36,836 bases of DNA from Candidatus Zixiibacteriota bacterium (GTDB lineage Bacteria > Zixibacteria > MSB-5A5 > WJJR01 > JAJRUJ01). How positions within the stretch are numbered: the stretch's first letter is position 1; every line of letters begins with the position of its first letter. A program made the position numbers and the translations under genes. Below the pieces are notes generated by a model, which saw nothing but the letters and a program-made list of their open reading frames with translations, made no database searches and was not told where the DNA came from. The stretch spans positions 1 through 36,836 of the forward strand of contig JAJRUJ010000048.1 in the NCBI GenBank assembly GCA_024277855.1. Reading direction: 5' to 3'. This document shows positions 5,347-36,295 of this stretch, piece after piece.

Positions 5347-6561
5347 ATGAAACTTCCGATCTATCTGGACAATCAGGCGACGACACCGCTCGACCCGCGC
5401 GTGCTCGAGGAGATGTTACCGTACCTGAAGGAGAAATTCGGTAACGCGGCGTCGCGTAACCATAGCTTCGGCTGGGAGGCCGAGGAAGCGGTCGAAAACG
5501 CCCGCAAACAAGTAGCGGCGTTGATCGGTTGCTCACCGAAAGAGATTGTGTTTACCTCCGGCGCAACCGAGTCGGACAATATTGCCCTCAAGGGCGCCTA
5601 TGAGATGTATGGCGACAAGGGCAATCATATCATCACGACTGCGATTGAACACAAAGCAATTCTCGACTCGGCCTCATGGCTGGAGCGCAAAGGCGCCAGG
5701 ATCACCCTGTTGCCGGTCAACGCCGACGGTCTGATTGAAATCGAGGAGCTGGAGAAGGCGATCACCGACCAGACGATCCTTATCTCGGTCATGGCCGCCA
5801 ACAACGAAATCGGCACGATCAATCCGATTACCGAGATCGGCGCGCTGGCCCATGAACGTAAGATTATTTTCCACACCGATGCCGCGCAGGGCGCCGGCAA
5901 GATGGATCTTGATGTCGAAAAGATGAAGATCGACGCCATGTCGCTCTCGGCGCACAAGATATACGGACCGAAAGGAATTGGCGCGTTGTATGTGCGGCGC
6001 AAAAATCCCCGGGTCCGACTGGCCCCGGTGATCCACGGCGGCGGGCATGAACGCGGGATGCGTTCGGGGACGCTCAATGTGCCGGCGATTGTTGGATTCG
6101 GTAAGGCCTGTGAGCTATGCCAGGAGGAAATGGCCGCGGAAAACGTGCGGTTAAAGGCGTTACGTGATCGGCTAAAAGAGAAGATTTTCAGCGGGCTTGA
6201 CGAGGTGTTTGTCAACGGGAGCATGGAGCATCGCTTGCCAAACAATCTGAATATCTCGTTTGCCTATGTCGAGGGCGAATCGTTGATGCTTGGCTTGAAA
6301 AATATCGCCGTTTCATCGGGTTCGGCCTGTACCTCGGCCTCGCTGGAGCCGTCGTATGTCCTGCGGGCGCTGGGAATCGGCGACGAACTGGCGCACTCGT
6401 CGATCCGGTTCGGGCTGGGGCGGTTTACCACCACCGAAGAGATCGACTACGTTGCCGCACAAGTTATCGAAAATGTCAAACGTCTGCGGGAAATGTCCCC
6501 GTTATATGAAATGGCAAAAGAGGGCATCGACATCAAGTCGGTGGAATGGGGCAAATCGTAA
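5347..6561 (+). CDS. iscS: Cysteine desulfurase IscS
   Basis: PLP enzyme that removes sulfur from L-cysteine and passes it as persulfide to IscU and other acceptors. It is 404 aa, the same length as E. coli IscS. The PLP-binding lysine is K204 in [12 protein letters not shown]; the ATESDN and HTDAAQ motifs bind cofactor; the mobile loop carries the persulfide cysteine C328 in [14 protein letters not shown], matching the E. coli position. This long loop marks it as group I (IscS/NifS) rather than SufS type. It is the second gene of the isc operon and precedes the scaffold gene iscU by 38 bases. A second, SufS-type desulfurase-like gene lies at 25562-27001. Confidence 0.97.
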
Positions 6562-6599
6562 CAGCGACGCAGAAACCCGATTAAAACAGGATACCGCAC

Positions 6600-7022
6600 A
6601 TGGCATACTCGGAAAAGGTCATCGACCATTACAACCAGCCGCGCAATGTCGGCAGTCTGGACAAAAAAGAAAAAAATGTCGGCACCGGAATTGTTGGCGC
6701 GCCTGAATGCGGTGATGTGATGAAACTGCAGATCAAGGTCAACGACAAAACCGGGGTGGTCGAGGACGCCAAGTTCAAGACCTTCGGCTGCGGCTCGGCA
6801 ATCGCGTCATCGTCGCTGGCCACCGAATGGCTGCGGGGCAAGACCATTGACGAAGCGATGGAGATTAAAAACGTCGACATCGTCAACGAACTCTCGTTAC
6901 CGCCGGTGAAAATTCACTGTTCGGTGCTGGCTGAAGATGCAATCAAGGCGGCGATTGCCGACTATAAGAAAAAGCAAAACGGCAACGGGGTGGACCCGGT
7001 GCGTGAGGATGATCAGGAATGA
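6600..7022 (+). CDS. iscU: Fe-S cluster assembly scaffold IscU
   Basis: Scaffold on which [2Fe-2S] and [4Fe-4S] clusters are built from IscS sulfur. The 140-aa protein has the three cluster ligand cysteines C37 (GAPECGD), C64 (FGCGSAIASS) and C107 (IHCSVLAEDA), and the labilising aspartate D39. The motif LPPVK at 100-104 is the known HscA-chaperone recognition sequence, and hscA and hscB follow in the same operon, so the chaperone-assisted cluster transfer step is expected to work here. A charged tail of about 15 residues extends past the usual end. Its stop overlaps the iscA start (ATGA), showing translational coupling. Confidence 0.97.
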   Translation: MAYSEKVIDHYNQPRNVGSLDKKEKNVGTGIVGAPECGDVMKLQIKVNDKTGVVEDAKFKTFGCGSAIASSSLATEWLRGKTIDEAMEIKNVDIVNELSLPPVKIHCSVLAEDAIKAAIADYKKKQNGNGVDPVREDDQE

Positions 7023-7342
7023 TTACGCTGACTGAAGCGGCCGCCAACGAGATTGTGCGGCTGCGAAAAGATCAGAACCTTGACGGACACGCACTGCGGC
7101 TGGGTGTCCAGGGCGGCGGCTGTTCGGGGTTGATGTACAGCATGCGGTTTGACAACGAAATCGGTGAACACGACAAAGTGTTCGAAGTCAATGGGGTCAA
7201 GGTCGTGGTCGATTTGAAAAGCGCTCTGTATCTGAAAGGTACGACCCTGGATTTCTCGAAAGATTTGACCGGGGGCGGCTTTAAATTCGATAATCCTAAT
7301 GCCAACCGTTCCTGCGGCTGCGGTTCGTCATTTACAACCTGA
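7019..7342 (+). CDS. iscA: Iron-sulfur cluster carrier IscA (HesB/SufA family)
   Basis: A-type carrier protein of 107 aa that accepts clusters from the IscU machinery and delivers them, chiefly as [4Fe-4S], to target enzymes. The three invariant cysteines are C35 in GGGCSGLMY and C99 and C101 in the C-terminal SCGCGSSF. The ATG overlaps the iscU stop by ATGA. Its place third after iscS and iscU is the standard isc order, so I use iscA rather than erpA or sufA. About 108 bases separate it from the next gene, the largest gap inside the operon. Confidence 0.95.
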   Translation: MITLTEAAANEIVRLRKDQNLDGHALRLGVQGGGCSGLMYSMRFDNEIGEHDKVFEVNGVKVVVDLKSALYLKGTTLDFSKDLTGGGFKFDNPNANRSCGCGSSFTT

Positions 7343-7450
7343 GGCGATTGCTTTCACACGATGCGACCGTTAAGCGATGTTTGGGCCTGACCGGCATACG
7401 CGAAATACGGGCAATCGCGCGGTACGACGATTTCGACGGGGAGGAACCAG

Positions 7451-7708
7451 ATGCCGGTCTTTAATTTACAGGAATTCGCAGTCGACGGAATAATCCGCGA
7501 GCGGGATTTACGTGATGCTTTCGCTCATTTCAACTGGGAAACGATGCGCGGAAAATCAGTGCATATTCGCGGTTGCGGTGAGGTAACAGTACCCGTTTGG
7601 GCTTATGCTATGGCCGCAGCACAAATTGCCCAGTATGCCGACAAGATTTCCTATGGCGAAGAAGCGGCCCCGATCCCGGTATTTGAACGGAAGACGGAGG
7701 CCGGTTGA
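7451..7708 (+). CDS. Small DUF2480-like protein inserted in the isc operon
   Basis: An 85-aa protein lying between iscA and hscB, a place where E. coli has no gene. A GAGGAA ribosome site precedes the ATG. The middle of the protein (GKSVHIRGCGEVTVPVWAYA, about residues 35-54) and the following helix resemble my recollection of the DUF2480 family of Bacteroidetes, which has a similar 'Cys ... P-x-WAYM' segment. DUF2480 proteins are about twice as long, so this would be a short version. C42 is the only cysteine. It is not IscX, whose acidic helical sequence looks different. The stop overlaps the hscB start (TGATG), so it is firmly part of the operon. A role in Fe-S biogenesis is inferred from position only. 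Confidence 0.75.
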   Translation: MPVFNLQEFAVDGIIRERDLRDAFAHFNWETMRGKSVHIRGCGEVTVPVWAYAMAAAQIAQYADKISYGEEAAPIPVFERKTEAG

Positions 7709-8427
7709 TGAGCACTCCCAAACAGACCGATCAATCCCACAGTCTCTGCTGGAACTGTCATTCCGAACTGGAATCTCCTTATAAATGTGTTCGCTGTGTC
7801 AAGATCCAGCCCTGGGCGGACGATACCGACTATTTCCAGTTTCTGGGACTGCCCCGGCGGCTACAAATCGACCTCGATGATTTAGAAGCGCGTTTTCTAA
7901 AACTCTCCCGCATTTTCCACCCGGATTTTTTCCAGGAGTCGGAATTTGCCGAACAGGATATTGCGCTGGTCAATGCCGCTCGGTTGAATAAGGCGTATGC
8001 GACGCTGAAAGACCGGGAAACCCGTGCGGGGTACATTCTTGAGTTGGAACTGGGGGAGAAATATCGGCCGACCAAAAATGTCCCCCCGGAACTGGCCACG
8101 AGTATCTTTGAAGTCCAGGAGTTGATGGCCGAACTGTCGACGCACAGCGGGAACGCCGCCGAGCAGGAAACAATCAAAGCGTTAAAGGCGCGTAAAGAAG
8201 AACTACATAAGGACTCGCACGCCCGGCTGGAGGAACTCGACGTCCATTTTGCCGCCTACGATAAGGTGATTGGTGCGGCGACATCACCTTTTGAACCCTC
8301 GGTCCGCCGCAAGATAGAAGAAATCCTGCGGGCGATGGATCAGACCCTGGCCGCCCGGCTTTATCTCAAACGGATAATCCAGAATATCACTGCAACGCTC
8401 GAAGGGAATTCCACCAATGGGCACTGA
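7708..8427 (+). CDS. hscB: Fe-S co-chaperone HscB with N-terminal zinc-ribbon
   Basis: J-domain co-chaperone that brings IscU to HscA and stimulates its ATPase. It is 239 aa from the ATG at 7708, chosen because GGAGG lies seven bases upstream. Residues 14-30 hold two CxxC pairs (C14, C17, C27, C30), a small zinc-ribbon as in eukaryotic HSC20 and absent from E. coli HscB. The J domain covers about 41-110 with the HPD triad at 71-73, and the helical C-terminal IscU-binding domain follows. The stop overlaps the hscA start by 11 bases. The function is well supported by order iscU-iscA-x-hscB-hscA-fdx. Confidence 0.95.
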
Positions 8428-10267
8428 TCAGGCCGACATCGTCGTCGGGATCGACCTTGGCACAACCAACTCTCTGATTGCGTATGTCGACGGGGATACA
8501 CCGAAAGTGCTGGCCGATACGGACGGTAACCTGCTGGTTCCGTCGGTCGTGTCCTTTGCCGAGGGAAAGCTGCTGACCGGAATCGACGCGAAAGAGCACT
8601 GGGTCGAACGGGCCGAATCGACGGTGTATTCGATCAAGCGCTTTATGGGCCGTGATTCGAATGAAGTCGGCGAAGATCGCGAATACCTCCCGTTCGCTTT
8701 CGAGGAAGATGAAAACCGACTAATCCATATCCAGCTCGGCAGTAAAACCTATACCCCGCCCGAACTCTCGGCGATGATCCTGCGCGAACTTAAACAGCGG
8801 GCCGAGAAACATTTTGGCCGGCCGGTCAACAAGGCGGTGATTACGGTCCCCGCATATTTTAATGATACCCAACGACAGGCAACCAAAGACGCCGGGAAGA
8901 TCGCCGGCTGGGACGTTTTGCGCATTGTTAACGAACCGACCGCGGCGGCGCTGGCCTATGGGCTTGACCGGAAGGAAAAACAGACGGTCGCGGTCTACGA
9001 CCTGGGCGGCGGGACCTTTGATATTTCGATTTTAAAACTCTCCGAGGGAATCTTCCGCGTGCTCGCCACCGGCGGCGATACTCACCTGGGCGGCGATGAT
9101 TTCGACCGGCAACTGATGAAGTATTTTGCCGAGAAAATCAGCGCCGCCGGTGTTTCAGGGCCAATGGATGATCCCCGGGCGATTCAACTCTTGCGGCAGG
9201 AGGCCGAAAGAGTCAAGATCGCTCTATCGGCCAATAGCACCGCGAATTTTTTGCTCACCTTGCCCGGCAAACCGGAAATATCCGGAACGATCAGCCGGGA
9301 CGAATTCGAGGAAATGATTCGGCCAATCGCCCAACGTACCGCCGGGCCGTGCAAACAGGCGCTGGCCGACGCAAAACTAACCCCCGAGGATATTGACGCA
9401 GTAGTCTTAGTCGGTGGCTCGACGCGGATGCCGTTGATCCGCGAGTTAACCGAACGGATTTTCGGTCAGAAACCATATACCGATTTGAATCCCGACGAAG
9501 TCGTCGCCCTCGGCGCGGCGGTGCAGGCCGACATCCTGGGCGGGAGTCGGCGTGACACATTGCTTTTGGATGTTATCCCGTTGTCGCTGGGCATCGAGAC
9601 GATGGGCGGAGTGTTCAGCCGATTGATTCATCGCAACACGACGATCCCGACCTCGGCCCAGGAGATGTTTACGACCTTTGTCGACGGGCAGACATCGGTC
9701 GATTTCCATGTCCTGCAGGGCGAGCGGGAACTGGCGGCCGATAACCGAACGCTCGCTCGATTCAAATTGACCGGCATCCCTCCCCTGCCTGCCGGTATCC
9801 CGCGGATTGCCGTACAGTTGATGATTGATGCCGATGGCATCCTGCAGGTCAAAGCACAGGAGACCCGGTCGAAAGTCGAGCAGAGCATTGAAATCCGGCC
9901 GTCGTCGGGATTAACCAAAGATGAGGTTGAGCGGATGATTGACGATTCATTCGACCACGCCGAGGAAGATTTTCTGGCTCGGCAGACCGCCGAGGCAATT
10001 ACCGAGGCGAAATCGATCATCCATGCGGTGGAAAAATCACTGCGCAAAAATGAGGACCTGATTTCGGAGGCCAAACGCGCCATGATCGCCTCGTCGATGG
10101 AACGGCTGAAAAAAACGATGACCGACAAAGACCACGGCGCAATTCGCGACGCGATCGATCATCTGGATAAGGTGACCCATGACGTGGCCGAAAAAATTCT
10201 CAATCGCGCACTGCACGAAGCGATCAAGGATACCTCGGTGACGGGAAACCAGTCCGCAATTGAGTAA
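8417..10267 (+). CDS. hscA: Fe-S specialised Hsp70 chaperone HscA
   Basis: Hsp70-family ATPase that binds the LPPVK peptide of IscU and promotes cluster release. The protein is 616 aa, matching E. coli HscA. Nucleotide-binding motifs are visible in order: phosphate-1 [13 protein letters not shown] near the N-terminus, [13 protein letters not shown], phosphate-2 [13 protein letters not shown] near residue 195, and the adenosine motif [13 protein letters not shown]. The substrate-binding beta domain and a helical lid follow from about residue 380. Encoded directly after hscB with overlap and before the ferredoxin gene, this is the dedicated ISC chaperone and not the general DnaK, which would normally be near grpE and dnaJ. 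Confidence 0.96.
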
Positions 10268-17560: not shown

Positions 17561-18685
17561 ATGGCGAAATATAAGATTGCCTGGATGCCTGGCGACGGGG
17601 TGGGCAACGATGTGATGGAAGCGGCGAAGATTGTGCTCGACGCGCTGAAGATTGACGCCGAGTATATCCCCGCCGATATCGGTTGGGAATTCTGGAAGAC
17701 CGAAGCGCAGCCGCTCCCCGACCGGACGGTCGAGTTGTTGAAAACTGTTGATTGTGCGTTGTTTGGCGCGATCACATCCAAGCCCAAAGAAGAAGCCGAA
17801 AACGAACTGATCCCGGAGTTGCAGGGCAAGGGGCACGTCTATTCAAGTCCCATCGTCGGCTTACGGCAGAAATTTGATTTGCACACTAACCTGCGACCAT
17901 GCAAGGGCTATCCCGGCAATCCGCTGAATTATAAAGACGGCATCGATCTGGTCGTCTTTCGGGAAAACACCGAGGGATTATATGCCGGCGTCGAATTCCA
18001 TCCGGTACCCGATGTCGTCCGACAGGTATTGGACGTGAACCATCCGAAGATGAAAAAGTTTGCGGGGGTCGACTCGCACGATATGGCGATCTCGACCAGG
18101 ATTTTCACCCGCCCGGCCTGCCGCTCAATTGCCCGGCACGCGTTTGACTATGCAAAAAAACACGGCTATAAATCGGTGACGGTGGTCGAGAAACCCAACG
18201 TGATTCGCGAAACTTCCGGTTTGATGGTGCGTGAGGCGCGCAAAATTGCCTCGGAGTTTCCGGGAATCGAACTCTGGGAAACCAATATCGACGCGATGTG
18301 CATGTGGCTGGTAAAAAACCCACTGGACTATGGCGTGCTGGTTTCGACGAACATGTTTGGTGATATCGTCTCCGATCTCTGCGCGCAACTGGTCGGCGGG
18401 CTGGGTTTTGCCTCCTCGGGAAACATCGGTGACAATTTTGCCGTGTTTGAACCGACCCATGGCTCCGCGCCGAAATATGCCGGACAGTATAAGGTCAACC
18501 CGATGGCGATGCTATTAACCTGCAAACTGATGTTCGACTGGCTGGGTGAAATCGAAAGCGCAAAGAAACTCGAAGACGCCATCGCCGCGGTGATCGCCGA
18601 GGGCAAAATCCGCACCTATGACATGGGCGGCTCGAACACCTCGCTGGAGGTCGCCGAAGAGGTTGCGCGCAAGGCGACGTCGTAA
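17561..18685 (+). CDS. icd: Isocitrate dehydrogenase, probably NADP-dependent
   Basis: Oxidatively decarboxylates isocitrate to 2-oxoglutarate, or the reverse in a reductive cycle. It is 374 aa with a GGAGGAATAGGAA ribosome region. Substrate residues of the family are visible: S96, R102, R112 and R134, Y141, K211 and N213, and the metal aspartates D244, D268 and D272 in STNMFGDIVSDL. The segment HGSAPKYAGQYKVNP keeps the Lys-Tyr pair that binds the NADP 2'-phosphate in E. coli Icd; NAD enzymes usually have Asp-Ile there. Homoisocitrate or isopropylmalate dehydrogenase is possible in principle, but the KYAGQ motif favours IDH. A strong hairpin terminator follows. Confidence 0.87.
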   Translation: MAKYKIAWMPGDGVGNDVMEAAKIVLDALKIDAEYIPADIGWEFWKTEAQPLPDRTVELLKTVDCALFGAITSKPKEEAENELIPELQGKGHVYSSPIVGLRQKFDLHTNLRPCKGYPGNPLNYKDGIDLVVFRENTEGLYAGVEFHPVPDVVRQVLDVNHPKMKKFAGVDSHDMAISTRIFTRPACRSIARHAFDYAKKHGYKSVTVVEKPNVIRETSGLMVREARKIASEFPGIELWETNIDAMCMWLVKNPLDYGVLVSTNMFGDIVSDLCAQLVGGLGFASSGNIGDNFAVFEPTHGSAPKYAGQYKVNPMAMLLTCKLMFDWLGEIESAKKLEDAIAAVIAEGKIRTYDMGGSNTSLEVAEEVARKATS

Positions 18686-25561: not shown

Positions 25562-27001
25562 TCATAGTTGGAAAAAATCGTTGAAATCGACATGGTAGCC
25601 CTGCGGTCGATACTCACCCCGTTCGATATCGAGATTATAAGTGCCGGAATACTCGCCAGCGGCGATTTTGGCCACCATGTCACACAAACGGTCGATTTCT
25701 TCGCGAGCATTATACAGCCCGAAACTCATCCGCAGGGTGCCGGGGATATTAGCCCGATTTCGTTTTCTAATCTCATCTTCATATTGCTTTTCCGTAACCC
25801 GATCAACCTTGAGAAGATATTTAACATAAGTATGCGCACAAAAACATCCGGCACGTACCCCGATGCCACCCTCATAATTCAAGACCGCCGCCGCCAGGTT
25901 GTGCGGAACGTCTTTGATATTAAACGAGATAACACCCAGTCGGTTAACCGTGGTTGCCGGGTCGGTATCGCCGTAGATCTCAACGCCTTCGATTTTGGCA
26001 AGTTTTTCAAGAGCGTAGGCGGTCAATTCCGCTTCGTGGCGGATAATAACCTCCCAGCCAATCTGCTCGATAATCTTGATTATTTTGCCCAATACCACCA
26101 CCCCGACAATGTCCGGGGTTCCGGCCTCCTCCTTGTCGGGCAGATCGGCCCAGTAGGCCTCCTCGAGGTTAACGATGTCGACCATTCCTCCACCGACGGC
26201 GTCTGGTTCACCTTCTTCGAAGGTTCCGCGCAGGCCGACCAGCACCCCAATACCATAAGGCGCATAGACCTTGTGGGCGGAAAAAACCAAATAATCAAGG
26301 TGTGCGGGATCGCTAACCGGCAACATCGAGACAGGGCGATGCGGACAGAGCTGGGCGGCGTCCATCAAAACCCGCGCACCGGCGGCGTGGGCCAGCGCGG
26401 CAATTGTGTGGAAATCATTGATATAGCCAGTCACGTTTGAAGCGCCGGTAACGGCAACCAATTTGACCCGCCCGGCATATTTTTCAAGTTTTTTCCGAAA
26501 GTCAGCCAGCGACAGGGTACCATCTGCTTCAAGCCCGATATGCTCGACCTGCGCCACCCGCCGCCAGGGCAGTTCATTGGAGTGGTGCTCCATTAAGGTG
26601 GTCAAAACGACGTCATCGGGTTTAAGCGGGAGCCGGTTGGCCAGTTTGTTGATCGCCTCGGTCGTGTTCTTGGTAAACAGCGTCACATGCTCGGCCTCAT
26701 CGGCCCCGACAAACCGGGTGATCGTCTCGCGTGCTTTTTCGAAAACCCACGACGACAATTGCGATTTGAAACCCGTTCCCCGGTGAACATTGGAATACCA
26801 CTTGAGAAACTCGCGGAGATGGTCGGCGACAGGATAGAACGTCGGTGTGGAGGCGGCGTTATCAAAATTAATATACGTTACCTGGCTGCCGTCCAACAGC
26901 GGGACTTGCTCATCGATGCCGATGAGTTGTTCACGCAATGTCTCGAGTGTCCAGGTCATGTCTGGTGCAGCGGGATTTGTTGCAGATGATTTAATTGTCA
27001 T
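25562..27001 (-). CDS. Class V aminotransferase, SufS/Csd-like cysteine desulfurase
   Basis: A 479-aa fold-type I PLP enzyme of the group II cysteine desulfurase class. The PLP lysine is K244 in FSAHKVYAPYG, the cofactor-stacking and acid residues are in MEHHSNELPW and VLMDAAQ, and the SufS catalytic-cysteine motif appears as RAGCFCAH with C388 in the catalytic place and an extra C386 two residues before. It is about 70 residues longer than E. coli SufS, with extensions at both ends. No suf genes are nearby and the window already has IscS, so it may supply sulfur for another pathway, act as selenocysteine lyase, or have a different class V reaction. The specific activity is uncertain. Confidence 0.85.
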   Translation of the reverse strand: MTIKSSATNPAAPDMTWTLETLREQLIGIDEQVPLLDGSQVTYINFDNAASTPTFYPVADHLREFLKWYSNVHRGTGFKSQLSSWVFEKARETITRFVGADEAEHVTLFTKNTTEAINKLANRLPLKPDDVVLTTLMEHHSNELPWRRVAQVEHIGLEADGTLSLADFRKKLEKYAGRVKLVAVTGASNVTGYINDFHTIAALAHAAGARVLMDAAQLCPHRPVSMLPVSDPAHLDYLVFSAHKVYAPYGIGVLVGLRGTFEEGEPDAVGGGMVDIVNLEEAYWADLPDKEEAGTPDIVGVVVLGKIIKIIEQIGWEVIIRHEAELTAYALEKLAKIEGVEIYGDTDPATTVNRLGVISFNIKDVPHNLAAAVLNYEGGIGVRAGCFCAHTYVKYLLKVDRVTEKQYEDEIRKRNRANIPGTLRMSFGLYNAREEIDRLCDMVAKIAAGEYSGTYNLDIERGEYRPQGYHVDFNDFFQL

Positions 27002-28714: not shown

Positions 28715-30259
28715 ATGGCACGTTTGCATGAATATCAGGGCAAGCAATTGCTTGCCGACGCGGGGATCAAGACTCCCAAACACGTGGTTATCCGAAAACC
28801 AAGCGAGCTTGATGCGGCTATTGCCGAGGTGGGTTTACCGGCGGTAATCAAAGCCCAGGCCTGGACCACCGGACGCGCCTCGATCGGCGCGATCGCCTTT
28901 GCCGACACCGCCGAAGAAGCCCGCGAAGCGGTAAACCATATGCTCGGACTCGAAGTGAAAGGGTTCCCGGTCACCGAGGTTCTCTTTGAAGAAAAACTCG
29001 CGATTGAACGTGAATTTTACCTGGGCATTATTATCGACGATGCCAACAAATGTCCACGGATGATTTTCTCCTCGGTGGGCGGGACCGGCATCGAAGAAAT
29101 CGCCCGGGAACATCCGGGCAAGGTGGCGCATGCCCTGATTGATTTTCGTTGGGGCTTGCGTGATTTCGAGGCGCGCAACGCGATCCGCAAAACCGGAGTC
29201 GGCGGCAAACTGCAGGTGAAACTGGCCGGAGCGGCAGTAAAATTATACAAAGTCGCCCGTAAGTCCGAGGCCCGTTCAGCGGAAATCAACCCGCTGGTCC
29301 TGCTCGAATCCGGTGAAATCGCCGCGGCCGATTGCCGGGTGACGGTCGACGATTACGCGGTGTTTCGTCATCCGGAACTGGGGATCGAAATCGCCCGCGA
29401 GTACGGTCATCCCCCGACGGCGCTGGACAAGATCGCCTACGATGTCGAGAAAAACGACTACCGCGGCACGTTTTATTTTATCGAGATGGCGCGCGGCTAT
29501 AAAAAAGGCGACAAGTACCTCGGTTTTCACGGCGCGGGCGGCGGCGGGTCGATGATGTCAATGGATGCACTGACCAAACGCGGATACATGATCGCCAATT
29601 TCTGCGATACCTCGGGCAATCCCCCGGCTTCCAAAGTATATCGTGCGGCCAAGATCATCCTGGCCCAGCCGGAAATCGACGGGTATTTTGGTTCGGGCTC
29701 CGGGGTCGCCTCGCAGGAACAGTTCCACTCGGCACGGGGGCTGGTCAAGGCGTTCCGGGAGCTAAACCTCTCAGTTCCGGCGGTGATTCGGCTGGGCGGG
29801 AATATGGAAGACGAAGCCGTGCGGATTTTGACCGAGTATACCAAAGACCTTGCCGCACCGGTGGAAGGGTACAAAAAAGACGATTCGGCCGATTTCTGTG
29901 CCGAGCGCATGCAAAAGCTGCTGGCCGATTTTACCGCGCCGGCCGAAAAGCTCCGACCGCGACCAAAACCGGCGGTAAACAAGCCCTACACCTTCAAGAC
30001 AATTACCGGTTCGGTGACGTATGATCATGATCTTTGCCGCACCTGCGAGTCAAAAGTCTGTATCGAAACCTGTGTGCCGCAGATTTTAAAACTCGAGGAC
30101 GGTCTGCCGGTATTGGCGATATCTGAGGAAGAGGCGGCCAAAGGCAAATGTTCCGAATGCCTGGCCTGTGAGATCGAATGCGCGGTCAGCGGTGCGGGTG
30201 GCGGGTATGTCGACCTGCCGATCGCAGGGTACGACGAATACGTCAAAGAGAATGGATAG
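28715..30259 (+). CDS. Succinyl-CoA-synthetase-like beta subunit fused to a two-cluster ferredoxin domain
   Basis: A 514-aa protein. Residues 1-390 are an ATP-grasp CoA ligase beta subunit: LHEYQGKQLLADAGI at the start, SAEINPLVLLESGE at about 190-203 and a divergent CoA-ligase domain with NFCDTSGNPPASKVY. The glycine-rich loop expected in SucC (HAGGRGKAGGV) reads AWTTGRASIGAI, so it is not a standard succinate enzyme. Residues 430-505 add a bacterial-type ferredoxin with C441, C444, C449 and C453 followed by P, then C479, C482, C485 and C489, enough for two [4Fe-4S] clusters. The alpha subunit gene starts three bases downstream, then a citryl-CoA-lyase-like gene. I infer citrate (citryl-CoA synthetase) as substrate; succinate, malate or another acid remains possible. 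Confidence 0.85.
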   Translation: MARLHEYQGKQLLADAGIKTPKHVVIRKPSELDAAIAEVGLPAVIKAQAWTTGRASIGAIAFADTAEEAREAVNHMLGLEVKGFPVTEVLFEEKLAIEREFYLGIIIDDANKCPRMIFSSVGGTGIEEIAREHPGKVAHALIDFRWGLRDFEARNAIRKTGVGGKLQVKLAGAAVKLYKVARKSEARSAEINPLVLLESGEIAAADCRVTVDDYAVFRHPELGIEIAREYGHPPTALDKIAYDVEKNDYRGTFYFIEMARGYKKGDKYLGFHGAGGGGSMMSMDALTKRGYMIANFCDTSGNPPASKVYRAAKIILAQPEIDGYFGSGSGVASQEQFHSARGLVKAFRELNLSVPAVIRLGGNMEDEAVRILTEYTKDLAAPVEGYKKDDSADFCAERMQKLLADFTAPAEKLRPRPKPAVNKPYTFKTITGSVTYDHDLCRTCESKVCIETCVPQILKLEDGLPVLAISEEEAAKGKCSECLACEIECAVSGAGGGYVDLPIAGYDEYVKENG

Positions 30260-30262
30260 GCG

Positions 30263-31162
30263 ATGAGTATTCTGATCGACAAAACCAAACGGGTACTGGT
30301 CCAGGGAATTACCGGCCGCGAGGGAATGGCCCGAGCCAGGTTGATGAAGGGTTACGGCACCGACGTTGTCGCCGGGTGCACCCCGGGCAAAGGCGGCCAG
30401 ACGGTGTTGAATGTTCCGGTATACGATACAGTCGAGGAGGCCGTTGATAATACCGGACAGATCGATATCTCGACAATTTTTGTCCCGGCTCCACTGGTGA
30501 AAAACGCCGCCCTGGAGGCATTATATGCCGGGATTAAATTGCTGGTGATTGTGCCCGACCGGGTGCCGATTTACGATGTGCTCGAAATTGCGGCGGTGGC
30601 CAAAGAAACCGGCGGCGAGTTTATCGGCCCGAACACGCTCGGCCTCCTCTCCCCCGGCAAAGCGGTACTGGGAATGATCGGCGGCAGCGCGGCCTCGGCC
30701 AAGGATTGGTTCAAAGTCGGCCGTTGCGGGGTAACCTCCCGTTCCGGCGGGATCACCTCGTCGATCGCCTACTATCTTTCGCGGGCGGGCGTGGGCTTGT
30801 CTTCGATTGTCCATGTCGGCGGCGATTCGGTGGTCGGGATGCCGCATCCGGAAGTGATCAAAAAATACCAGGCCGACCCGGAAACCGATGCCGTGGTGAT
30901 GTTCGGTGAGATCGGCGGTTCGCAGGAAGAGACAGTCGCCGATTTGATGGAAGCCGGTGAAATCACCAAACCGCTGATCGCCTATATCGGCGGCCGAGGG
31001 GCGAAATCGGGCACCCGGTTTTCCCATGCCGGGGCAATCATCGAAGGCGGTCGGGGAACATACGAGGGCAAGGTCGAACGGCTGACCGCCGCCGGCGCGC
31101 ATATTGTGGAAAATTTCGGCGATATTCCCCAGGTCACCAAAGAAGTCATGGCAACTTTGTGA
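30263..31162 (+). CDS. Succinyl-CoA-synthetase-like alpha subunit
   Basis: A 299-aa CoA ligase alpha subunit. The CoA-binding Rossmann domain opens with RVLVQGITGREGMARARLM, CTPGKGG follows, and the ligase domain holds the phosphorylated histidine H255 in RFSHAGAIIEGGRGTYEGK. These are the hallmarks of SucD and of the equivalent part of ATP-citrate lyase. In standard SucD the phospho-His is preceded by Gly (GHAGA); here it is Ser. The gene starts three bases after the ferredoxin-fused beta subunit and is followed 36 bases later by the lyase-like gene, so the heteromeric ligase and lyase are made together. Confidence 0.9.
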   Translation: MSILIDKTKRVLVQGITGREGMARARLMKGYGTDVVAGCTPGKGGQTVLNVPVYDTVEEAVDNTGQIDISTIFVPAPLVKNAALEALYAGIKLLVIVPDRVPIYDVLEIAAVAKETGGEFIGPNTLGLLSPGKAVLGMIGGSAASAKDWFKVGRCGVTSRSGGITSSIAYYLSRAGVGLSSIVHVGGDSVVGMPHPEVIKKYQADPETDAVVMFGEIGGSQEETVADLMEAGEITKPLIAYIGGRGAKSGTRFSHAGAIIEGGRGTYEGKVERLTAAGAHIVENFGDIPQVTKEVMATL

Positions 31163-31198
31163 CGGAGTAACCATATCGAACCAGATTCGAGGTCGGCA

Positions 31199-31975
31199 AT
31201 GAGTGAGAACAAATGGCAAACCGCGATCACCGATATCGGGAAAAACAAGATTAACCTGCGCGGGTACCCGATCGAGAAATTGATGGGAAATGCCAGTTTC
31301 GCCCAGGTGGCGTACCTGGCGATTTTCGGTGAACTCCCCGATGAAAAAACCGGCAAGATGATCGACACGATTATTGTCTCGTCGGTCGACCATGGGGTCA
31401 CGCCGCCGTCGATTCTCTCGGCGCTGACGGTCGCCTCGACCGGGGCCTCGCTGTCGGCCTCGATTGCCGCCGGGATCATGTCGATTAATAAATTTCACGG
31501 TGGCGCAATCGAAAACTGCATGAAAATGCTGACCGAAGCAGTCGAGCTGCAGACCGCCAACGGACTCTCAACTGAAGAGGCCGCAAAAAAACTGGTGACC
31601 GATTACCGGGCAACAAAGAAACGGTTATTCGGATACGGCCACCGGGTGCATTCGGAAGATCCCCGCAAGGTGCGATTGATCGAACTGGCCAAAGAACTGG
31701 GGTTTTATGGCCCGGCGGTGCAAATGTCAGTCGCAATTGAACAGGCGATCCAGGAAGTGCTGGGCAGAAACCTGCCGCTCAATGTCGATGGCGCAATCGG
31801 CGCGGTGTTATGCGAGTTGAAAGTCCCGCCGGAATTAGCCAACGCGTTTTTCATCCTGTCGCGAACGGCGGGGATCATCGCCCATGTCTACGAGGAACGC
31901 ACCCGGCAGAAACCGATGCGCAAAGTCGAACCGGGGAATTGGGAATATGACGGCCCCGCCGAGCGGGAGCTGTAA
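31199..31975 (+). CDS. Citryl-CoA-lyase-like protein (short citrate synthase fold)
   Basis: A 258-aa protein of the citrate synthase superfamily. Citrate synthases are about 370-430 aa; this one lacks the N-terminal region and matches the size of stand-alone citryl-CoA lyase of Hydrogenobacter and of the C-terminal lyase domain of ATP-citrate lyase. The catalytic set of the fold is present: H100 (FHGGAIEN), H148 (GYGHRVHSEDPRK) and D197 (NVDGAIGAVLCEL). It would split citryl-CoA to acetyl-CoA and oxaloacetate, or run in reverse. Directly preceded by a CoA-ligase alpha/beta pair, which fits the two-step citrate cleavage route. A truncated citrate or methylcitrate synthase is a less likely alternative. 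Confidence 0.85.
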   Translation: MSENKWQTAITDIGKNKINLRGYPIEKLMGNASFAQVAYLAIFGELPDEKTGKMIDTIIVSSVDHGVTPPSILSALTVASTGASLSASIAAGIMSINKFHGGAIENCMKMLTEAVELQTANGLSTEEAAKKLVTDYRATKKRLFGYGHRVHSEDPRKVRLIELAKELGFYGPAVQMSVAIEQAIQEVLGRNLPLNVDGAIGAVLCELKVPPELANAFFILSRTAGIIAHVYEERTRQKPMRKVEPGNWEYDGPAEREL

Positions 31976-32001: not shown

Positions 32002-32535
32002 ATGTACAATCAGATTGTCGAGATGCTGCCCGAGATCGACGAGATCAAGGACGCTGATCTCCGGGACAAGACAGTAAAGACCTGGGTTGCGGCAATGGAA
32101 AAGAGCGCCCTGACGCTGGACAACCTTAAAACCATGCCTTTCACCCTGCTGGTGGAAGGGGTCAATGTGACCTTTATCGAACATGTTCGCACGGTGTGCC
32201 GGATGTGTATGGCCACCTGGGACGTGTTGCAGGAGGCCTACGGCGAGCGGAACAAGGTCAACCGCGACATTCTGATCGCCGGGGCAATGCTGGCCGACGC
32301 GGGCAAGGCGCTCGAGTTTGCCTATGTCGACGGGAAATATGTCAAATCCGAACATGCCAAATATCTCCGTCACCCGTTTTCCGGGGTCGGGCTGGCCTGG
32401 GAGCAGGGAATCCCCGATTCGGTGTTGCATATCATCGGCACACATTCCAAGGAAATCTGCGGCGCGAAACGCTCACCCGAGGGAATTATCTTTCACCATT
32501 GCGATTTTGTGGATTTCGAATTGATCGGCGGGTGA
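32002..32535 (+). CDS. HD-domain-like protein with a degenerate metal motif
   Basis: A 177-aa alpha-helical protein with HD-domain layout. H61 (FIEHVRTV) fits the first metal ligand, and helix LIAGAMLADAGKALEF (about 91-106) corresponds to the HD pair, but the histidine is replaced by alanine (A98-D99). Later residues H124, H143, H148 and a HHCD motif at 165-168 could still bind metal. Loss of the key His suggests altered metal use or a non-hydrolytic, ligand-binding role. It begins 26 bases after the lyase-like gene and is the last gene of this operon before a terminator, so it may regulate or assist the CoA-ligase/lyase system. Function is not established. Confidence 0.75.
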   Translation: MYNQIVEMLPEIDEIKDADLRDKTVKTWVAAMEKSALTLDNLKTMPFTLLVEGVNVTFIEHVRTVCRMCMATWDVLQEAYGERNKVNRDILIAGAMLADAGKALEFAYVDGKYVKSEHAKYLRHPFSGVGLAWEQGIPDSVLHIIGTHSKEICGAKRSPEGIIFHHCDFVDFELIGG

Positions 32536-32570: not shown

Positions 32571-32592
32571 GTCGGCGGTCGCCGGCCTTTTT
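32571..32592 (+). terminator. Terminator of the CoA-ligase/lyase operon
   Basis: GTCGGC (32571-32576), loop GGTC, GCCGGC (32581-32586), then CTTTTT. Short, GC-rich stem with a T run, just after the HD-like gene. Confidence 0.82.
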
Positions 32593-34360: not shown

Positions 34361-35599
34361 ATGGGTCAGACGATAGTTGAGAAGATCGCCACTGCCCACG
34401 CCGAGGGGCTGAAAGATGGCGAGTTGGTATATGCCGGTGATTTTATCACCTGTGTGCCCAAACACATCCTGACGCATGACAATACCAGCGCGGTGATGGG
34501 AAAATTCAAGGCCATCGGGGCCGCAAAGATCGCCAATCCCCGTCAGCCGGTATTTGCCGTCGACCACGACATCCAGAATAAATCACCGGAAAACCTGGCC
34601 AAATATGCAAAAATCGGCAATTTCGCCAAAGAACAAGGGGTTGATTTCTATCCCCCGGGCACCGGGATCGGCCACCAGGTGATGATCGAGGAGGGGTATG
34701 TCACGCCCGGCAGTATGGTTGTCGCCTCCGATTCACATTCAAATATTTATGGCGCAATCGGTGCATTGGGTACGCCGGTAGTGCGCACCGATGCGGCGTC
34801 GATTTGGGCAACCGGCCGGACCTGGTGGCAAGTGCCGCAGATCGCCAGAGTGGAACTGACCGGCAAAATGCAGCCCGGCGTGGTCGGCAAGGATGTGATC
34901 ATCACGCTGTGTGGCTTATTTAATCACGACGAAGTGTTGAATATGGCGGTCGAATTCACCGGCAACGGCATTGCCGGGATTCCGCTGGACCAGCGAATGT
35001 CGATCGCCAATATGACCACCGAATGGGGCGCGTTGGCCGGAGTTTTCCCGTTTGACGAGGTCCTGCGCGAGGCGATGTATGAATGGGCGTTCTATCTTGA
35101 GGTCATCGGGACCAAACGGTACACCAAAAAAGATGTCGAAAACTGGTATGCCAACCGGCTGGAGCCGGACGCCGACGCCCATTATCACACCAGTTTGTCG
35201 CTCGATCTGTCGACGGTGATCCCCTATATCTCCGGGCCGGACAATGTAAAAGTGATGACCTCCCTGCCGGAGATGGAGGAAAAAAAGCTCAGGGTCAATA
35301 AGGCCTATCTGCTCAGTTGCGTAAACGGGCGGCTGGCTGACTTAGCCGATGCGGCGAAGATTGTCGCGGGCAAGAGAGTCGCCGACGGGGTGGAGTTTTA
35401 TGTCGCGGCGGCCTCGGCGAATATTCAGAAAAAGGCCGAGGAACTCGGGTATTGGCAGAAACTGGTCGATGCCGGGGCGATCACCCTGCCCCCGGGATGC
35501 GGGCCGTGTATCGGGCTGGGTGTCGGGACGCTCGAAAAGGGCGAAATCGGGATCAGCGCAACCAACCGCAATTTCAAAGGCCGCATGGGCCATCGGTAG
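34361..35599 (+). CDS. Aconitase, homoaconitase-like: N-terminal part up to an in-frame amber codon
   Basis: First 412 codons of an aconitase-superfamily enzyme, ended by TAG at 35597-35599. The [4Fe-4S] ligands are C320 (LLSCVNGR), C380 and C383 (PPGCGPCIG). Blocks such as VDHDIQNKSPENLAKY, GIGHQVMIEEGY, VASDSHSN, RTDAASIWATG and MTTEWGALAG are closer to fungal homoaconitase (Lys4) than to E. coli AcnA or AcnB by my reading. It should interconvert citrate and isocitrate, or homocitrate derivatives. The stop falls after NRNFKGRMGHR, a conserved block that normally continues without a break; the next frame-matched codons encode that continuation. By itself this fragment lacks the swivel domain and would not be active. 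Confidence 0.88.
   Translation: MGQTIVEKIATAHAEGLKDGELVYAGDFITCVPKHILTHDNTSAVMGKFKAIGAAKIANPRQPVFAVDHDIQNKSPENLAKYAKIGNFAKEQGVDFYPPGTGIGHQVMIEEGYVTPGSMVVASDSHSNIYGAIGALGTPVVRTDAASIWATGRTWWQVPQIARVELTGKMQPGVVGKDVIITLCGLFNHDEVLNMAVEFTGNGIAGIPLDQRMSIANMTTEWGALAGVFPFDEVLREAMYEWAFYLEVIGTKRYTKKDVENWYANRLEPDADAHYHTSLSLDLSTVIPYISGPDNVKVMTSLPEMEEKKLRVNKAYLLSCVNGRLADLADAAKIVAGKRVADGVEFYVAAASANIQKKAEELGYWQKLVDAGAITLPPGCGPCIGLGVGTLEKGEIGISATNRNFKGRMGHR
35597..35599 (+). other. In-frame amber codon interrupting the aconitase gene
   Basis: TAG at codon 413. The frame continues unbroken for 231 further sense codons after it, starting SEVYLGSPAVVAASALNGY, which is the expected aconitase sequence. A single base change (for example from CAG, AAG, GAG or TCG) would restore a 644-aa enzyme of normal size. 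Confidence 0.9.
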
Positions 35600-36295
35600 T
35601 CGGAAGTCTACCTCGGCAGCCCGGCGGTGGTGGCGGCCTCGGCGTTGAACGGATATATCAGTGCCCCGACCCGGTTCGAAAAGACCGAGAGCAAGACATC
35701 AATCGAAGTGCAGGGCAAAGCGAGCCGCCCGAGCGCGGCGGTGAAGATTATCGACGGGTTCCCCGGCTCAATCCGGGGACGGGCACTCTGGCTGCCGGTG
35801 GATAACCTGAATACCGACGGAATCTACGGCGGTGAGTTTACTTACAAAGACGACCTGACCGTCGAGCAGATGGCCGCCGCAGCGATGCTCAACTATGACC
35901 CGAAATTCCAGGAACTGGCCCAGACTGGTGACGTGATCGTCTCCGGACGGAATTTCGGCACGGGATCGTCGCGCGAACAGGCCGCCACATCGCTGGCGTT
36001 TCGCGGGATCAGTTGCGTGATCGCCGCCTCATTTTCGGAAACTTATAAACGCAACGCCTTCAATAACGGCTTTATGGTGATTGAATGTCCCGTACTGGTC
36101 GATTATCTGCGGGAGAAATTTGCCGGGCAAAACGAGCCGACGATTGTCGGCCCGACGATGAAGATCGATTATCGTGAATCGATTATCGCCTGCGATGGTA
36201 AGACATTTATGTTCCCGCCGCTTTCAATGGTGGCACAGGAGCTGGTCGTCGCCGGCGGGGCGGAGAACCTGGTCAAACAGCGGTTGGGGCAATAG
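35600..36295 (+). CDS. Aconitase, C-terminal part including swivel domain, in frame after the amber codon
   Basis: 231 codons that continue the aconitase frame with no gap or shift. They encode the end of the core domain (YLGSPAVVAASALNGYI) and the whole swivel domain, with the substrate-binding signature SGRNFGTGSSREQAA near the middle, then AFRGISCVIAASFSETYKRN. The first possible independent start is GTG at 35627; there is no clear ribosome site, so I regard it as the second half of one broken or read-through gene and not as a separately expressed small subunit. A genuine two-subunit arrangement (as in LeuC/LeuD-type enzymes) would need its own start signal and a break at the domain linker; here the break is inside a conserved core motif. 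Confidence 0.85.
   Translation, partial: SEVYLGSPAVVAASALNGYISAPTRFEKTESKTSIEVQGKASRPSAAVKIIDGFPGSIRGRALWLPVDNLNTDGIYGGEFTYKDDLTVEQMAAAAMLNYDPKFQELAQTGDVIVSGRNFGTGSSREQAATSLAFRGISCVIAASFSETYKRNAFNNGFMVIECPVLVDYLREKFAGQNEPTIVGPTMKIDYRESIIACDGKTFMFPPLSMVAQELVVAGGAENLVKQRLGQ

Follow-up and report, generated by a model that had tools for sequence, protein, structure and literature searches.

The draft genome of a Candidatus Zixiibacteriota bacterium (assembly GCA_024277855.1; 3.07 Mb in 129 contigs, completeness rated 100%) contains a four-gene operon that probably encodes a system for the reversible conversion of citrate to acetyl-CoA and oxaloacetate. Judged by sequence, the predicted system consists of a citryl-CoA synthetase (CCS) made up of an alpha subunit and a beta subunit with a fused ferredoxin-like domain (beta-Fd), a citryl-CoA lyase (CCL; protein Ccl) and an HD-domain accessory protein. 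The operon is located in the window analysed here, the whole of contig JAJRUJ010000048.1 (36,836 nucleotides; contig C35 in our numbering), with all four genes on the plus strand. The beta subunit, an acyl-CoA ligase of 514 amino acids (aa), is encoded at 28715–30259, followed after 3 bases by the SucD/CcsB-like alpha subunit (30263–31162, 299 aa; PF02629 and PF00549) and after further 36 bases by Ccl, a protein of 258 aa with the citrate-synthase fold (31199–31975; NF004869). The fourth gene, for an HD-domain protein of 177 aa (32002–32535), starts 26 bases downstream of ccl. A sequence-only reading of the window had described the first three genes as a split citrate-cleavage module, and its open reading frames (ORFs), lengths and gaps agree with ours. 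Three features were absent from it: the eight-cysteine ferredoxin-like C-terminus of beta, the HD gene as a member of the operon and an in-frame TAG splitting the aconitase gene of the window.

Ccl scores above the cut-off of the NCBIfam citryl-CoA lyase model NF004869 (259.5 vs. 212 bits). Its best match in the PDB is 6hxp, the citryl-CoA lyase of Hydrogenobacter (E 4.7e-56), and the next one is a citrate synthase at 1e-21. The catalytic His-His-Asp set and the phosphorylated histidine of the alpha subunit, both claimed in the sequence-only reading, are found as H100/H148/D197 in Ccl (D197 counted by hand) and as H255 within RFSHAGAII in alpha. Furthermore, the motif LNVDGAI, which contains D197, is common to Ccl and 6hxp, and alpha keeps the glutamate of the GEIGG motif. 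Separate genes for ligase beta, ligase alpha and a short lyase represent the arrangement of CCS and CCL. The fusion of lyase and alpha part seen in ATP-citrate lyase (ACL) is missing: the ORFs are separate, and a search for the citrate-synthase family in the genome returned only Ccl and one full-length citrate synthase, with neither such a fusion nor the lyase domain of a separate ACL.

The ligase core of beta (residues 1–405; 28715–29929, plus strand) comprises an ATP-grasp and a citrate/CoA-ligase domain similar to CcsA and SucC (PF08442, 164.6 bits). The protein is 514 aa long, compared with about 385–397 aa for the SucC chains and 429 aa for the CcsA chain in the PDB. PF16114, the citrate-binding domain of ACL, is matched by all 11 beta-Fd proteins, the window beta reaching 25.0 bits, below the Pfam cut-off of 26.8. 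No match to PF00549 was obtained in the window beta; the SucC of the same genome, used as the control, gave 90 bits, and SucC2 of related genomes gave 40–46 bits. Beta also stays below the cut-off of the SucC model (235.8 vs. 370 bits) and far below that for the beta subunit of malate-CoA ligase (163.5 vs. 604 bits). In maximum-likelihood trees, with sequences from PDB alignments as references, the beta-Fd proteins form a clade of their own apart from SucC and SucC2, and they remain outside both if AclA or CcsA is omitted in turn. Placement of the ligase among true SucC/SucD proteins, which the sequence-only reading had regarded as speaking against a citrate-cleaving system, was therefore not found. 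In addition, the window beta (PPTALDKIAYDVEKNDYRG) and CcsA (PPTEREIEASLIDRDDHRG) have an insertion in common, reading PPT...DYRG and PPT...DHRG, respectively, as well as the motifs GGGGS and GNPPA; both the insertion and the motifs are absent in the aligned SucC.

The last ~100 aa of beta resemble a 2[4Fe-4S] ferredoxin. The domain spans residues 425–505 (29987–30229, plus strand) and contains cysteines 441/444/449/453 and 479/482/485/489 in the motifs CxxCx4CxxxC and CxxCxxCxxxC. None of the eight varies among the 11 homologues compared, which come from several phyla; the others are 58–82% identical to the window beta over the whole chain, and the linker ahead of the motifs varies in length and sequence. 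In an AlphaFold2 model of the full chain the ferredoxin-like part has a pLDDT of ~85–92; folded alone, the domain gave one confident model out of five. The nearest solved folds include small bacterial 2[4Fe-4S] ferredoxins (1vjw and Hydrogenobacter Fd1), matched weakly at E > 0.1, and sequence models also match weakly (Fer4_9, 0.0017; four of the 11 members at E ≤ 0.01). Since PDB and NCBIfam searches with the domain alone returned no match or only weak ferredoxin matches, no specific ferredoxin subfamily is claimed, and the putative assignment rests mainly on the invariant cysteine pattern. Compared with a genome of the same family (G001), the beta core has a dN/dS of 0.058 and the ferredoxin-like domain one of 0.10, and a closer pair gives 0.032 and 0.043, respectively; these low values indicate that the domain is under purifying selection. 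Such a fusion was found in no described relative: a search of the literature for a citryl-CoA or succinyl-CoA synthetase with a fused Fe-S domain, with subscription papers outside its scope, gave nothing relevant.

The order beta, alpha, ccl and HD gene, clustered with genes for aconitase and/or isocitrate dehydrogenase (IDH), recurs in G001 and in five genomes of the same order (G002, G004, G005, G007 and G008). A short contig of G013, a member of the same class, contains beta, alpha and the first part of ccl. Outside the class the module is present in metagenome-assembled genomes (MAGs) of Neomarinimicrobiota (L042), KSB1 (L043) and Anaerolineae (L044). Because Ccl exceeds the NF004869 cut-off and related genomes, as well as MAGs of other phyla, show the same order of genes, the gene set is not considered a product of chance. 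The four-gene module is real, conserved and probably functional, a CCS/CCL-like set with an unusual fused ferredoxin. The beta-Fd type is found in only 7 of the 110 genomes of the phylum that are at least 80% complete. Within the order, G006 has neither beta-Fd nor ccl, and G003 (L226, contig C13) has kept ccl and the module aconitase together, with no beta, alpha or HD gene in the 14 kb read.

The HD gene comes after ccl in each of the nine homologous clusters that cover this stretch, with 43–79% identity of the proteins. The histidine of the HD motif is replaced by alanine in nine of the ten cluster proteins compared (ADAGK in the window); the canonical form occurs in L044 and in three copies linked to SucC2. 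SucC2/SucD2 is a pair similar to succinyl-CoA synthetase in relatives, several of which have a member of this HD family nearby (L229, L233, L242). This distribution suggests that the HD family may be functionally tied to NDP-forming acyl-CoA synthetases. All eight genomes with beta-Fd lack SucC2, which occurs in 29 of 58 genomes of relatives; seven of the eight share one order and are not independent observations, G013 belonging to another family. This suggests that the beta-Fd ligase and SucC2/SucD2 may replace each other. The possibility that SucC2/SucD2 is the same enzyme minus the ferredoxin was rejected, as SucC2 has no CcsA insertion and groups in a separate clade; it is only a possible functional counterpart.

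Both partner genes named in the sequence-only reading are present in the window on the plus strand. An aconitase-family protein is encoded at 34361–35599 (large part, 412 aa, TIGR00139), where the frame ends at the TAG, and at 35600–36295 (remainder with the GSSREQ motif; PF00694, 69 bits; ORF caller start at 35627). The IDH-family protein of 374 aa (17561–18685) possesses the motif APKYAGQ, which we take to be of the NADP type. In G002, G004, G005, G007, G008, L042 and L043 an IDH gene lies in the cluster with the module; the stretch of L044 examined showed none. The aconitase of L042 and L044 is a different, two-subunit protein of the LeuCD/HacAB type, L044 having two aconitase-type pairs after the HD gene. 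The sole aconitase-type gene of L043 is situated upstream, and its protein likewise matches the LeuC/HacA family.

In the proposed mechanism ATP would phosphorylate H255 of alpha, and citrate held on beta would be converted to citryl-phosphate and transferred to CoA. The citryl-CoA formed would then be split by H100/H148/D197 of the lyase into acetyl-CoA and oxaloacetate. Every step would be reversible, and the backward run would yield citrate and ATP. Together with the dedicated aconitase and the NADP-type IDH the module would form a self-contained arm 2-oxoglutarate ↔ isocitrate ↔ citrate ↔ acetyl-CoA + oxaloacetate, parallel to the standard citrate synthase, aconitase and IDH of the genome. 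As the formation and cleavage of citryl-CoA include no electron transfer, a sensing or docking role is proposed for the ferredoxin-like domain: most likely it would sense or dock the ferredoxin pool and thereby gate the ATP-linked enzyme. A wider and more tentative hypothesis, to which we give clearly less than an even chance, is a redox-gated CCS whose 2[4Fe-4S] domain senses ferredoxin or exchanges electrons with it, switches the module, sets the direction of the tricarboxylic acid (TCA) cycle and prevents a futile loop with citrate synthase.

Elsewhere in the genome, contig C52 carries a separate SucC/SucD pair alongside malate dehydrogenase and a second IDH, also of the NADP type, so that the second standard sucCD which the sequence-only reading had proposed to look for exists, as does the full-length citrate synthase (contig C14). 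A canonical second aconitase is encoded on contig C71. No match to the C-terminal domain of the classical 2-oxoglutarate dehydrogenase was obtained in the genome, the control being positive in 6 of 14 known genomes. Among seven POR_N loci, four pass cut-offs for the alpha subunit of 2-oxoacid:acceptor oxidoreductases (PRK08659 in three cases, TIGR03710 in one), and a VorB cut-off is passed by one; these are candidates for a 2-oxoglutarate:ferredoxin oxidoreductase, the enzyme looked for as a mark of a reductive TCA cycle. Contig C29 was considered as a second aconitase/IDH set and rejected, since its dehydrogenase passes the cut-off for 3-isopropylmalate dehydrogenase (427.9 vs. 393 bits) and is read as part of leucine biosynthesis. 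The loci L232:4703–7958 and L133:10602–13927 each carry a gene for an HMGL-family synthase with LeuC/LeuD-type genes after it and IDH-family genes next to them; in L133 a set of 2-oxoacid:ferredoxin oxidoreductase genes comes first. The genome that holds the operon shows no match to DapB_C and no LysX above the cut-off (best match 29.7 vs. 275.6 bits) despite the completeness rating, leaving its lysine/diaminopimelate route unexplained.

Citrate is preferred as the substrate because Ccl exceeds the cut-off of the citryl-CoA lyase model and has 6hxp as its nearest solved relative, and because aconitase and IDH genes are clustered with the module. Several observations weigh against this reading. 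Because CcsA and AclA are long branches, the trees do not fix beta-Fd as the sister of CcsA, nor, once AclA is dropped, how CcsA, beta-Fd and SucC branch. The loop A-N-x-T contacts citrate in ACL structures. In the alignment this loop of ACL and CCS is replaced by GVASQEQ in the beta-Fd proteins; therefore the substrate pocket differs from that of CCS and ACL, and citrate is a substrate that we infer rather than one demonstrated. The full-length citrate synthase means that the module is not the sole route to or from citrate. The window aconitase is broken by the TAG at 35597–35599, inside a stretch reading GRMGHRDAxVYL in five relatives, which possess one ORF of 642–680 aa. The frame continues past this codon, and dN/dS is ~0.12 before and ~0.15 after it, both sides being under purifying selection; the TAG reflects either a nonsense mutation of recent date or an error in the sequence, and the step could be covered by the aconitase on C71. 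Moreover, the window aconitase passes the homoaconitase model TIGR00139 (547.6 vs. 529.9 bits). The window IDH reaches no model cut-off, scoring best with NCBIfam AksF2 (326 bits, cut-off 540), and has SSPIVGLRQ where the other IDH of the genome has RSLNVTMRQ. These two partners, the altered loop and the missing DapB_C would fit homocitrate, or some other tricarboxylate that is longer or substituted, with homocitryl-CoA cleaved reversibly into acetyl-CoA and 2-oxoglutarate and with homoaconitase and homoisocitrate dehydrogenase as partners. We consider this unlikely, as no consumer of 2-oxoadipate was found in the genome (LysX being far below its cut-off), AksF2 and related models are likewise far from theirs, the residues of Ccl match citryl-CoA lyase and the clusters of other phyla adjoin pyruvate-dehydrogenase-type E1/LPD genes.

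The ligase might also be an ordinary succinyl-CoA or malyl-CoA synthetase paralogue with the lyase as its neighbour by chance. The general homology to SucC/SucD agrees with it, the best single PDB match of beta being the SucC of Thermus and those of alpha being SucD structures; alpha itself is below the NCBIfam SucD cut-off (282.6 vs. 336 bits). The model scores and the tree position of beta, the insertion and motifs shared with CcsA, the separate SucC/SucD of the genome and the linkage of ligase and Ccl fixed across phyla make this explanation improbable. A different question is the direction in which the same enzymes work, since an oxidative use, from acetyl-CoA and oxaloacetate via citryl-CoA to citrate with formation of ATP, is compatible with the favoured enzyme identity. 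The ATP-citrate lyase of Desulfobacter postgatei reportedly works in this way, synthesizing citrate with ATP formation, as Moller and co-workers, cited in PMC12137691, are said to have described in 1987. The chemistry is reversible, IDH and ferredoxin-type 2-oxoacid oxidoreductases are present, and the genes for pyruvate-dehydrogenase-type E1 and LPD beside the L042 cluster, like the LPD gene in L043, are more in line with a supply of acetyl-CoA. The parallel citrate synthase, already available for the oxidative direction, leans towards cleavage. Oxidative use is rated only a little short of an even chance, and the module could serve reductive citrate cleavage or ATP-forming citrate synthesis. 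The reductive use suggested by the sequence-only reading is one of two directions that the gene content allows.

The favoured system, a ferredoxin-fused CCS with its lyase, has the three-polypeptide split, the phospho-His alpha subunit and the stand-alone lyase of ~258 aa in common with CcsA/CcsB and Ccl of Hydrogenobacter thermophilus (PDB 6hxq, 6hxp), and its beta subunit the PPTxxx...RG insertion and the GGGGS/GNPPA motifs. It differs in the C-terminal 2[4Fe-4S]-like domain, in GVASQEQ instead of A-N-x-T, in the short alpha subunit (299 aa vs. 353 in chain A of 6hxq) and in the HD protein of the operon. A CCS/CCL-like set outside the Aquificota, in a conserved cluster with its own aconitase and IDH, is thus what stands of the sequence-only reading, whereas a plain Hydrogenobacter-type CCS does not. 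In the reductive TCA cluster of Leptospirillum ferriphilum the CCS, CCL and aconitase genes lie together as ccsA-ccsB-acnA-ccl, comparable to the module (PMC2607301); that cluster includes fumarate reductase and SucCD, and the part of the report considered here mentions no ferredoxin fusion or HD protein. AclA/AclB (PDB 6hxj, 6hxi, human ACLY) resemble the module in overall reaction, folds and citrate-binding Pfam domain, but have the lyase fused to the alpha part. SucC/SucD share the fold and the phospho-His mechanism and differ in the specificity region. SucC2/SucD2 of class relatives, also a synthetase-like pair near the same HD family, lack the ferredoxin domain and have a canonical HD motif nearby.

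Downstream of the HD gene, a probable intrinsic terminator (GTCGGCGGTCGCCGGCC followed by TTTTT; 32571–32592, plus strand) was read by eye, with no score from a tool. The window also contains ISC iron-sulfur assembly genes (IscS, HscA; 5347–10267) and a gene for a SufS-family cysteine-desulfurase-like protein (25562–27001).

Citrate cleavage is one marker step by which reductive TCA cycles are called in genomes. As the beta-Fd variant stands apart from the SucC, CcsA and AclA proteins examined, surveys based on markers may overlook it or annotate it as a succinyl-CoA synthetase. If the proposed role is true, the conserved ferredoxin domain of an acyl-CoA synthetase whose reaction involves no redox step would directly and physically link the ferredoxin redox state to the direction of the TCA cycle.

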